Below are positions 15,936 to 39,644 of a stretch of 64,000 nt of DNA, piece by piece. Made by a program: the position numbers and the translations under genes. Numbering within the stretch: the stretch's first letter is position 1; every line of letters begins with the position of its first letter. The notes under the pieces are model-generated. The model made no database searches. It was not told where the DNA came from and was given only the letters and a program-made list of their open reading frames with translations. Source of the DNA: Sinotaia quadrata (lineage: Eukaryota > Mollusca > Gastropoda > Architaenioglossa > Viviparidae); assembly GCA_028829895.1 (NCBI GenBank), contig CM054179.1, forward strand, positions 41,867,617 through 41,931,616. Direction: 5' to 3'.

Positions 15936-16008
15936 ACACAGTCAAAAGAAGTAAAGAAGGGAGCATTGTAATTATTGGGTATGACCTTGAGTTTATTGTT
16001 TGCGATTA

Positions 16009-16052
16009 CACTATGTAACACAATTTTTGTTCCTGGCTTCTAAGTGTTATAT
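16009..16052 (+). repeat. Left terminal inverted repeat of the CACTA element
   Basis: CACTATGTAACA (16009-16020) is identical to the inverted right end. Then (C)AATTTT, a gap relative to the right end, GTTCCTGG (16029-16036) and AAGTGT (16042-16047) align in the same order. The base triplet immediately outside is TTA. Confidence 0.8.
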
Positions 16053-16577
16053 TTCAATTGCTTATGTCTAAAGTACGTGAAAAAATGACTTCATTAAGCA
16101 CAAACTTTGCTTACACGACAACAGCACGAAGAAAACTCGGTTTTTTGTGAAAATAGAACGATTTCTTTTCATTTTCGTCATTATGATCAGGTAAAAACAA
16201 AATTTGCACAAGGAATAGACAAACAGTTGGAAACCACTCAACAAGGTTCAGAAATGTGTAGATTTTCTAGATTTACGATTGTACTGTGAATCACTCTCTC
16301 GAAGTAGCCCCCAAATGTAGTCCCCCATCATGTTTTCGTTATACTGTCCTTGGTAACGACACTCAAAGTTCAATATATCTTGATGAAAGCGCTCGCCTTG
16401 CTCCTCCGAGTAAGCGCCCATGTTCTCCTTGAATTTGTCGAGATGCGAATCAAGGATATGAACTTTCAGAGACATTCTGCATCCCATTGTGGCGTAATTC
16501 TTTATGAGAGTCTGCACCAACTCCACATAGTTTTCAGCTTTGTGATTACCTAGGAAGCCCTGAACAACTGCAACGAA

Positions 16578-16583
16578 ACTGCT
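16578..16583 (-). other. Internal deletion junction in the transposon gene
   Basis: The minus-strand frame passes directly from a serine-rich RLFIDSSSRS segment to SFVAVVQGFLGNH. In relatives as I remember them these blocks are separated by well over 100 residues. The frame is kept across the join, and serine codons (AGC AGT) at the join allow short microhomology. The missing part probably held the catalytic core. Confidence 0.55.
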
Positions 16584-17172
16584 CCGGGATGAACTGTCTA
16601 TGAATAGGCGCCATTCAATAGGATTACATGCAATACCTATAGCCTGGAATAGACCGGCAACATCGTTGCAGAAGCACAGCCCATCACGCTGACTGAAGAA
16701 GTTGGAGAATCTTTGATGCTTCCTCTGATCTGTGACTTGTACGCTATCATCAACCAAGTTCCACTGTTTGAGCCTGGATATCAGAAGCTCAGCATTCGAT
16801 TTCGTAAGCCCGAGGTCCCTAATTAAATTGTTCACGTCTTTCTGGTTAGAGAAGTACGGCTTTCTATCCCCAACTTCAACTGCAGAATCGTAGTCCATAT
16901 CTCCAGTATCTGCCTCGCTATCTGACTTGCTGCTGTCTCCTGAAGATGGCCGATGCCGCTAGGAGGAGTCGGAACAGGCAGATCGGGGCTGTGTGGTACT
17001 GGGGCAATGGAAGAAGGTATGTCCAGATAAACGATCTGAGGGGCATTTTTGCCGGTGCGACAATTTTGGGGGTTTACCATGCAGAAGTAGCAGTTGCTTG
17101 AATGGTCCGTCGGCTCTCGCCAAATTCGCGGGATAGCAAACTTCATGGCTCGCTTCTCTCCTCTGTACCAAC

Positions 17173-17395
17173 CTGTAACATAGCACATAATAATACATAA
17201 GAATTATAATAATTTGAGGGCAGGAAATTTCAAAATATGGAACGATTTCAAGATGGAATGTATTTGCCTACAGTACACGACTTATGACAAAACTTTGTAA
17301 ATTACAACTCTTTGAAATGAACTCGATCTAAAGCATTGAAATTTTATGAAAATAAATTAAAACACATCTAAGCGAGAAGCAACTGTTCAGTTTAC
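17173..17395 (-). other. 223-bp GT-AG intron of the transposon gene
   Basis: On minus, exon 1 ends ...CTTGAAG, then GTAAAC begins the intron. It ends TGTTACAG before GTTGGTACAGAGG of exon 2. Joining restores a continuous frame reading LEGWYRGEKRA. An intact, frame-restoring intron argues against a processed (retroposed) origin of this copy. Confidence 0.85.
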
Positions 17396-17650
17396 CTTCA
17401 AGTGTTTTCTTGCAATATTCGCATGTGAAATGCGGTGCCCAAGATTTGTCTTGGTCCCCGACCGGCACGCCGAAGTATGCCTTGTAGGCCTCGCACATTA
17501 TACGACTTGCTTCCACTGAATACTTTTTCGCTCTTGTCTTTATGAATTGTCCGCACACATAGCAGAATGAATCAGCTGGATGCAAACAATCTCTTGATGC
17601 CATATCAAATAAATAACTTCTCATGGAATCTTGGTTCGAGACACCTGTGC

Positions 17651-17657
17651 TTTTATA
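17651..17657 (-). promoter_or_regulatory. TATA box of the transposon gene
   Basis: Minus strand reads GTATAAAAGC, with TATAAAA at 17657-17651. It is 47 bp upstream of the MASRDC start codon and 18 bp downstream of the heat-shock-element array. A start site about 30 bp downstream would fall near 17620-17627, giving a very short 5' leader. Confidence 0.7.
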
Positions 17658-17675
17658 CTTGTACAGCTACTTTTG

Positions 17676-17768
17676 GAACGTTCAAGAACGTTCTAGAAAG
17701 TTCTGAGAGTTTCTCGAAAGTTCTGGAAGTTTCTTGAACGTTCTAGAGTGTTCAGGAGAATTGTAGAA
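17676..17768 (-). promoter_or_regulatory. Long heat-shock-element (HSF-binding) array
   Basis: Alternating GAA and TTC triplets occur in strict 5-bp phase from 17676 to 17768. Of 19 slots, 15 are perfect; the exceptions are 17706 (AGA), 17746 and 17756 (GAG) and 17761 (TTG). Canonical heat-shock elements need only three such units (nGAAnnTTCnnGAA). The array lies just upstream of a TATA box and the gene's start, in the layout of animal hsp70 promoters. HSF binding is inferred from the motif. An alternative is that this is a subterminal transposase-binding repeat, but no similar array is seen at the left end. Confidence 0.85.
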
Positions 17769-17824
17769 ACACGTGGACAACTCTAGCAGTTCAGGGAGGA
17801 AGCTCGGCATTGAAAGCAAATCGA

Positions 17825-17837
17825 GAATTTTCTCGAA
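17825..17837 (-). promoter_or_regulatory. Second heat-shock element (three perfect units)
   Basis: GAA at 17825, TTC at 17830 and GAA at 17835 form one complete nGAAnnTTCnnGAA element in the same 5-bp spacing, 57 bp beyond the main array. A further TTCnnGAA pair is at 17887-17894. Confidence 0.7.
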
Positions 17838-17935
17838 CACACGCGATTTTCCAAATTTCATTGTCCCGGTCACAGAAGCAAAGTTTTTCTGGAATAACAG
17901 TGATTTCCTTTCTGTTCTAGACCTAACGGATTAGA

Positions 17936-17989
17936 AAAACACACTTTCAACCCAGGAACAGAACAAAAGTGAAAATTTGTTACATAGTG
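17936..17989 (-). repeat. Right terminal inverted repeat of the CACTA element
   Basis: Read on minus from 17989: CACTATGTAACA, AATTTT, an 11-base insertion relative to the left end, GTTCCTGG (17959-17952), then AAAGTGT. TTA follows immediately outside on plus (17990-17992). Confidence 0.8.
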
Positions 17990-18348
17990 TTATCATTGCC
18001 TATGGTAAAAATAAGCAACACACCGTTAAGTTAATGGGAAAAATCACGCAAAATAAATCCACAGGGCTTTTATAACCCTAAGCAAACACTGCACACACAC
18101 ACACACACAAACACACCTAAATACAGATAAAATAATATAGCTATTCTTAAACAAATTATGCTTGACAATGGCTAGTGATAAGTGAAAAAGTTGTAAATCA
18201 TTCTGTGGTGTACTCCCCCCACCCCCACCCAGAAATAAAGGCGTGTCCGATTTCTCCAAATATCAAGAAGTTTAGTGATTTAATTTGTTCACCCCATTCC
18301 ATCTCTAAATAGATACAGGCGTTAAGTTGTGCGAGAACGACATTTAAG

Positions 18349-32847: not shown

Positions 32848-34250
32848 CGAGAAATCGCTCACAGTACTATCTTTAGCACTAGAAATCGCTCACTGTACTA
32901 TCTTTAGCACTAGAAATCGCTCACAGTACTATCTTTAGCACTAGAAATCGCTCACTGTACTATCTTTAGCACTAGAAATCGCTCACTGTACTATCTTTAG
33001 CACTAGAAATCGCTCACTGTACTATCTTTAGCACTAGAAATCGCTCACAGTACTATCTTTAGCACTAGAAATCGCTCACTGTACTATCTTTAGCACTAGA
33101 AATCGCTCACAGTACTATCTTTAGCACTAGAAATCGCTCACTGTACTATCTTTAGCACTAGAAATCGCTCACAGTACTATCTTTAGCACTAGAAATCGCT
33201 CACTGTACTATCTTTAGCACTAGAAATCGCTCACTGTACTATCTTTAGCACTAGAAATCGCTCACTGTACTATCTTTAGCACTAGAAATCGCTCACTGTA
33301 CTATCTTTAGCACTAGAAATCGCTCACTGTACTATCTTTAGCACTAGAAATCGCTCACTGTACTATCTTTAGCACTAGAAATCGCTCACTGTACTATCTT
33401 TAGCACTAGAAATCACTCACTGTATTATATTTAGCACTAGAAATCGCTCACTGTACTATCTTTAGCACTAGAAATCGCTCACTGTACTATCTTTAGCACT
33501 AGAAATCGCTCACTGTACTATCTTTAGCACTAGAAATCACTCACTGTACTATATTTAGCACTAGAAATCGCTCACAGTACTATCTTTAGCACTAGAAATC
33601 GCTCACAGCATTATCTTTAGCACTAGAAATCGCTCACTGTATTATCTTTAGCACTAGAAATCACTCACTGTATTATATTTAGCACTAGAAATCACTCACT
33701 GTATTATCTTTAGCACTAGAAATCGCTCACTGTATTATCTTTAGCACTAGAAATCTCTCACTGTATTATATTTAGCGCTGGAAATCGCTCACAGTACTAT
33801 CTTTAGCACTAGAAATCGCTCACAGTACTATTTTCGGCACTATAGATTGCTCACAGTACTATCTTTGACATTTGAAATCACTCACCATATTATCTTCGGC
33901 ACTTGAAATCGCTCACAGTACTATCTTTGACATTTGAAATCACTCACCATATTATCTTCGGCACTTGAAATCGCTCACAGTACTATCTCTGGCACAAGAG
34001 ATTGCTGACAGTACTATTTTTGGTACAAGAGATTGCTGACAGGACTATCTTTGGCACTAGAGTTCACTGACAGTACTATCTCTGGCACAAGAGATTGCTG
34101 ACAGTACTATTTTTGGTACAATAGATCGCTGACAATACTTTCTTTGTCACAAGAGATTCTGGCAATACTATCTTTGGTACTAGAGTTCATTGACAGTGCT
34201 ATCTTAGAGTTCATTGACAGTGCTATCTTTGGCACTAGCATCAACTGAGA
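32848..34250 (+). repeat. 31-bp minisatellite, ~45 copies (largest array)
   Basis: Units read ACTAGAAATCGCTCACTGTA followed by CTATCTTTAGC. From 32848 to about 33840 about 32 copies differ mainly at one position (CACTG versus CACAG), with occasional CACTCAC and TATTATAT variants clustered at 33410-33770. From 33840 to 34250 the units decay (GGCACAAGAGATTGCTGACA). The non-random alternation of variants indicates multi-unit duplication. Confidence 0.95.
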
Positions 34251-38852: not shown

Positions 38853-39644
38853 AAGAGTCACATTATAGTTCAGATTATCAGACCCTCTGCACTAAAAAGA
38901 GTCACATTATAGTTCAGGTTATCAGACCCTCTGCACTTATAAGAGTCACATTATAGTTCAGGTTATCAGACCCTCTGCACTTATAAGAGTCACATTATAG
39001 TTCAGGTTATCAGACCCTCTGCACTTATAAGAGTCACATTATAGTTCAGGTTATCAGACCCTCTGCACTTATAAGAGTCACATTATAGTTCAGGTTATCA
39101 GACCCTCTGCACTTATAAGAGTCACATTATAGTTCAGGTTATCAGACCCTCTGCACTTATAAGAGTCACATTATAGTTCAGGTTATCAGACCCTCTGCAC
39201 TTATAAGAGTCACATTATAGTTCAGGTTATCAGACCCTCTGCACTTATAAGAGTCACATTATAGTTCAGGTTATCAGACCCTCTGCACTTATAAGAGTCA
39301 CATTATAGTTCAGGTTATCAGACCCTCTGCACTTATAAGAGTCACATTATAGTTCAGGTTATCAGACCCTCTGCACTTATAAGAGTCACATTATAGTTCA
39401 GGTTATCAGACCCTCTGCACTTATAAGAGTCACATTATAGTTCAGGTTATCAGACCCTCTGCACTTATAAGAGTCACATTATAGTTCAGGTTATCAGACC
39501 CTCTGCACTTATAAGAGTCACATTATAGTTCAGGTTATCAGACCCTCTGCACTTATAAGAGTCACATTATAGTTCAGGTTCTCAGACCCTCTGCACTTAT
39601 AAGAGTCACTTTATAGTTCAGGTTCTCAGACCCTCTGCACTTAG
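38853..39644 (+). repeat. 44-bp minisatellite, 18 near-identical copies
   Basis: Units read AAGAGTCACATTATAGTTCA, GGTTATCAGACCCTCTGCAC, TTAT. The first starts at 38853 and the eighteenth at 39601, exactly 17 periods apart, so no indels occurred. Only the first unit or two and the last two carry substitutions. This is the most homogeneous array in the window and therefore the most recent expansion or the most actively homogenised. Confidence 0.95.

Follow-up and report, generated by a model that had tools for sequence, protein, structure and literature searches.

A dense heat-shock-element array at the promoter of a putative Chapaev3-type transposon family in the snail Sinotaia quadrata

The transposon copy and its promoter array

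The window analysed here, a 64-kb stretch of Sinotaia quadrata DNA, contains a 1981-bp transposon copy at 16009–17989 on the minus strand, to which all features of the element below also belong. We classify it as a non-autonomous, probably Chapaev3-type copy from CACTATGTAACA, which is found inverted at both ends, and from 20 homologous copies of 1976–1994 bp. The terminal inverted repeats match exactly over 12 bases, at 16009–16020 on the 3’ side of the gene and at 17978–17989 on the promoter side, and both termini carry CACTATG. The copy is flanked by a TTA target-site duplication at 16006–16008 on the left and 17990–17992 on the right. Inside the termini, the segments 16025–16070 and 17918–17963 form a subterminal inverted match of 46 nt with 72% complementarity.

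The predicted gene has two exons. Exon 1 (17396–17603) starts at the ATG at 17603 and encodes a cysteine-containing N-terminus with a weak LIM match of 20.8 bits, which is under the Pfam cut-off of 22.9; its splice site was deduced from the reading frame and from the Acipenser relative P0017. A predicted GT-AG intron joins the exons in frame and matches the same Acipenser protein. Exon 2 (16248–17172) carries a frameshift when set against the majority of 21 copies, and an in-frame internal deletion has removed the transposase core; the junction of this deletion, at 16581–16585, is a 5-nt overlap of the two flanking alignments to the core-carrying copies L051–L053. The ORF in the window retains the H(4)H motif and lacks C(2)C and LH, while the frame of L052, the one core-carrying copy examined for them, has all three. 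The sequence-only reading had described the window gene as the gene of the transposon, which needs correction: the copy encodes no complete transposase. Since the transposase middle is deleted and the frame is shifted, the window copy is a passenger and not a source of transposase.

We also observed that the majority frame of the 21 copies, in which the internal deletion is in frame, encodes an uninterrupted 378-aa protein without the catalytic core, a possible repressor. The core-carrying copies L051–L053 show the reverse arrangement, lacking the stretch that runs from the last part of exon 1 through the intron into the first part of exon 2, and the alignments indicate that they and the window copy are two complementary deletion derivatives. 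In L051–L053, the leader between the TATA box and the ATG is ~43 nt longer by hand count.

Upstream of this gene, GAA and TTC triplets follow each other in turn at 5-bp steps from 17676 to 17768, forming a heat-shock-element (HSE) array of 19 slots over 93 bp. Fifteen of the slots are perfect, three have two of the three letters and one has a single letter; the longest uninterrupted run of perfect slots is seven. As the best-scoring segment, the array reaches 21.5, compared to 5.0 for the runner-up within the window and 6.0 for the highest maximum among 100 simulated sequences drawn from a first-order Markov chain of the window; these maxima averaged 4.2. On the gene side, the array is separated by 18 bp from a TATAAAA box at 17651–17657, which belongs to a 105-bp promoter pattern running from the array to the TATA box, and the ATG (17603–17601) lies 47 nt past the box. 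The array, these distances and the promoter position had all been proposed from the letters, and each was borne out. The same reading had noted an additional three-unit element at 17825–17837. This element exists with a score of 4.5, but by itself it is at chance level in 64 kb because the simulated mean of the maximum is 4.2.

The units of the array differ mainly within the 2-bp spacers, while the slot columns are kept: column entropy is 0.30–0.59 in the slots and 1.57–1.72 in the spacers. Among the 210 possible splits of the ten columns, at most one other equals the split between GAA/TTC and spacer, a test that is partly circular because GAA/TTC had set the register. An A precedes GAA in 11 of the 19 slots. 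An A before GAA in alternating 5-bp phase is an HSF-like preference, and a row of inverted nGAAn units beside a TATA box is a known heat-shock promoter design. With its 19 slots, the array exceeds the minimum for an HSF-responsive promoter, which we set at three inverted nGAAn units spaced in 5-bp phase, and its position near the TATA box is like that in the hsp70 genes of the host.

A tandem repeat with a period of 10/20 was detected at the array. The window as a whole holds 116 tandem-repeat rows, many of which are arrays unrelated to the HSE array, including two homogeneous ones at 38853–39643 (44 bp x 18, 99%) and 32850–34114 (31 bp x 41, 91%).

Distribution of the array among family copies

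We searched the host assembly, which comprises 984 Mb in 26 contigs. Among the 120 hsp70 matches listed out of 8000 candidates scored, the closest named ones of similar length come from caenogastropods, with up to 87% for Pomacea, 85–86% for Batillaria and 83–84% for Littorina, which points to a caenogastropod host. With the 391-bp promoter end as query, 40 of 383 candidates were scored, and all 40 match at least 389 bases at 99–100%. The 105-bp promoter occurs with at most three mismatches at 313 places, of which the 100 least-mismatched all show 0 mismatches, while the reversed control gave none. A private satellite of this insertion was rejected on the same count. A strict pattern of seven slots was found at 371 places, compared to three for its reversed control; the 100 places listed correspond to 88 sites, and their letters are all family-like by eye.

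A further search used as its query the fish relative P0004, whose sequence contains the core that the window copy lacks, and the best 116 of 1975 candidates were scored, with 78–84% identity. The strict-pattern list spans contig C1 and most of C2, and the comparison covers the 24 of these 116 core copies that are located there. In 21 of these 24, the strict pattern lies 253–1055 bp upstream on the same strand. Among the remaining three, L055, the only one whose promoter was read, has an array of 19 slots with 14 perfect. Altogether, 37 distinct copies were read, of which 30, including the window copy, had been picked by promoter similarity and seven by the core. All seven core-found copies (L051–L053 and L054–L057) carry the array. 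The form with 19 slots and 15 perfect was seen in 34 copies, that is, in 30/30 of the promoter-picked and 4/7 of the core-picked ones; the other three core-picked copies are L055 as above, L051 with 23 slots (18 perfect) and L054 with 15 slots (12 perfect). The array thus occurs in core-carrying as well as deleted copies and, wherever a copy was read, sits next to the TATA box. The expectation that it is shared by the family and is not private to one insertion was therefore supported.

The length variants L051 and L054 differ from the common form in steps of 20 bp with the phase held, and slippage in a 20-bp repeat would equally yield such phase-keeping changes. Slippage accounts for the size steps, but not by itself for the kept slots. 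In 35 copies, excluding L051 and L054, we counted one slot change and seven spacer changes (p 0.007), and 0 and 2, respectively, without CpG sites (p 0.12). The conservation of the array shows little time depth because the copies are young: each 1.98-kb copy differs by 10–29 substitutions from the majority sequence of the 21, and the window copy by 13. This set was picked by promoter similarity and is biased accordingly, and the low divergence at bases 1–400 was discounted because the copies were picked by resemblance to that stretch.

Other places show further variation. Five overlapping strict seven-slot matches at G000:C1:148816825-148816877 and four at C1:125780255-125780302 indicate runs of perfect slots longer than that of the window copy. 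Pairs of array-bearing sites in the same orientation lie 4–5.6 kb apart at G000:C3:57450036/57455596 and C2:125850016/125854011. Searches of the viral contig and genome contig collections found no related DNA of other species.

Superfamily assignment

The label given in the sequence-only reading was CACTA, and in this respect we found a better fit elsewhere. A 3-bp target duplication is present in all 23 copies with both ends readable, counting the window copy and excluding L051, whose 5’ end is damaged; 22 of the duplications are TWA and one is AAA, and 21 of the 23 have an A before and a T after the duplicated target. The account of Chapaev elements in PMC4079192 describes CAC...GTG ends and the motifs C(2)C, LH and H(4)H, and TWA between A and T is given there as common to all Chapaev3 elements examined. 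The snail element has CAC...GTG ends. Because of the TWA duplications in 22/23 copies and the presence of C(2)C, LH and H(4)H in L052, the element probably files better as Chapaev3 in the CMC group than as CACTA. Like CACTA/EnSpm elements in the strict sense, which are also in the CMC group, it has ends that start with CACTA, a feature that leaves room for other CMC groups; plain CACTA/EnSpm was rejected on the TWA target preference and the Chapaev motifs.

The closest described relatives are Merrow and Garfield, which PMC4079192 presents as two-exon families of lampreys, fishes and insects with horizontal transfer. The gene of the snail element also has two exons, as predicted. In the complete copies described in that source, exon 1 encodes 75–78 aa and exon 2 encodes 477–484 aa, while exon 1 of the snail element encodes ~69 aa from the ATG at 17603 and no complete exon 2 was present among the copies read. 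Proteins of Acipenser and Lethenteron, which are hosts, or relatives of hosts, named for Merrow/Garfield in PMC4079192, share 75–84% identity with the L052 frame over 227–280 aa, and the snail is a host different from those of Merrow/Garfield. The word “promoter” does not appear in the main text of the same paper. Sequence searches against Pfam, NCBIfam and PDB returned no transposase family; the Pfam search, with three pieces of the window and five relatives, found no family above the cut-off, which is a weak test in that no Chapaev model matched either.

Proposed heat-shock control of the family and alternative readings

HSF-type domains, which an HSF-responsive promoter would need, are present in the host genome. 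An HSF DNA-binding domain scores above the cut-off at three places in the genome, one of which has an internal stop. Five hsp70 places (L058–L062) have an uninterrupted coding frame, three clustered on contig C6 and two on C1, and the 700-bp stretches upstream of all five contain HSE-like segments with two or three perfect units 10–62 bp above the TATA box. The HSEs in these stretches are short or imperfect only; the best score of the five, 5.5, belongs to a longer imperfect segment further upstream of L059, compared to 21.5 for the transposon array, which is thus far longer than any segment upstream of the five hsp70 genes in the same host. Since the hsp70 promoters manage with short HSEs, a length like that of the array is not needed for induction.

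From the sequence, we propose that this is a Chapaev3-type family with a dense HSE promoter, whose transposase gene would be driven by stress-activated HSF and whose transposition bursts would follow, a reading that we hold with a probability of roughly 0.7. Protein-damaging stress would lead to HSF trimers, several of which may sit side by side on the array, where 19 slots leave room for about six, just above the TATA box. Bound HSF would then activate transcription of the transposase gene in the manner of hsp70, and the pulse of transposase, acting in trans, could serve full-length copies and internally deleted ones alike. In this way, the family would spread in stress-linked bursts, and every insertion would plant one putative HSF-binding array. 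The HSF binding, the heat induction and the bursts are what we infer from the promoter.

Two other readings deny the array any role in HSF binding. The array falls in the terminal 315 bp at one end of the copy, and plant CACTA elements use subterminal repeats, as in the TNPA sites of En/Spm; the array might then be the transposase’s own binding platform and resemble HSEs only outwardly. We consider this quite improbable. The array is single-ended, with no score above 3.5 past the first 400 bp of the copy, while the separate 46-nt subterminal match occupies both ends, which makes a transposase-binding role of the array less likely and, on sequence grounds, makes the 46-nt pair the better candidate for transposase binding. 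Its place directly above the TATA box and its alternating 5-bp phase with the HSF-like A before GAA also argue against a platform. The period of 10/20, the 20-bp length variants and the abundance of unrelated tandem arrays in the window would all be expected of a roleless minisatellite, in which slippage has multiplied a palindromic unit of 10 or 20 bp whose likeness to HSEs is accidental. Such an origin seems improbable in view of the slots, which are kept while the units differ mainly in the spacers, of the location, which is beside the TATA box in all the copies read, and of the pattern score, which does not exceed 5.0 elsewhere in the window.

The remaining alternatives accept a heat promoter or an HSF promoter and place its use elsewhere. 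The array may belong to a former heat promoter that is now silenced by chromatin or small RNAs, either of which could hold the copies off, or the copies may have spread through heat-independent expression in the germ line. This would suit the 20 copies retrieved by promoter similarity, all ~2-kb forms resembling the window copy, and the drift in the coding sequence of the 21 copies, where N/S is 0.54 of expectation and eight stops were found with 11 expected. It is at odds with the low divergence among the copies and with the stop-free matched stretch, by hand count, in 68 of the 116 scored core copies (best of 1975), and we regard it as unlikely. Comparably unlikely in our estimate is a promoter driven in the germ line by a developmental HSF paralogue and not by heat, to which the activity of animal HSFs outside heat shock and the HSF-domain matches at three host places lend some weight.

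A more far-reaching version of heat-shock control of the family is a long shot. In this version, the life cycle of the family has become coupled to the heat-shock response, which the family influences in return: ~313 arrays with 19 slots each, with room for ~1,900 HSF trimers, would be the genome’s main dense store of HSF sites, sufficient to pull HSF off hsp genes or to recruit neighbours, and the core-less in-frame deletion derivative with its cysteine-containing N-terminal part could act as a repressor that is induced by heat and brings each burst to a close. A comparable repressor is the KP form of the P element.

Heat-responsive mobile elements with HSEs are known from several lineages. 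In DIRS-1 of Dictyostelium, a tyrosine-recombinase retrotransposon, the repeats contain heat-shock promoter signals. In Brassicaceae, ONSEN/COPIA78 and TERESTRA have clustered nGAAn units and strong heat induction, ONSEN is bound by HSFA2, and its four-unit element accompanies an 884–976-fold induction in two Arabidopsis species, as described in PMC5059998; these are plant LTR retrotransposons with four to six units, in contrast to the 19 slots in the snail. In the fungus Cryptococcus, according to the portions of PMC12810828 that cover CNIRT6, CNEST and TCN3/TCN12, heat increases the mobility of a subset of elements. CNIRT6 and CNEST share the CMC supergroup with the snail element, but the HSEs reported there are those of LTR elements, with two putative HSEs in the TCN3 LTRs, and not of CMC elements (PMC12810828). 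A close parallel is found in worms, where heat-induced Helitron transposase genes are preceded by 14 HSEs in C. elegans and by 85 in C. briggsae, as reported in PMC6927752. Like the snail element, these are animal DNA transposons with many HSEs upstream of the transposase gene, and their HSEs, described as tandem and overlapping, are supplied to genes; they differ in belonging to the rolling-circle superfamily with an unrelated protein (PMC6927752). Our comparison with the Helitron HSEs extends to their number and their tandem, overlapping arrangement, and we make no claim of a higher density in the snail.

The novelty assumed in the sequence-only reading is thereby narrowed. A literature search, judged mostly on titles and abstract openings, found no paper that joins a CACTA/Chapaev or gastropod transposon with HSEs, and in this sense no animal CACTA/Chapaev case was found, while HSEs and heat induction were already known for the Helitrons (PMC6927752). 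HSE-carrying, heat-driven transposons are a known kind, for which the superfamily and the phylum appear to be new. If the proposed reading is true, the heat-shock switch was also acquired by DNA transposons of a second animal superfamily and in a different phylum. Since the family is recent and has many near-identical copies, stress-triggered transposition bursts are directly testable in the snail. The family may also have reshaped how its host responds to heat, as happened with Helitrons in worms.
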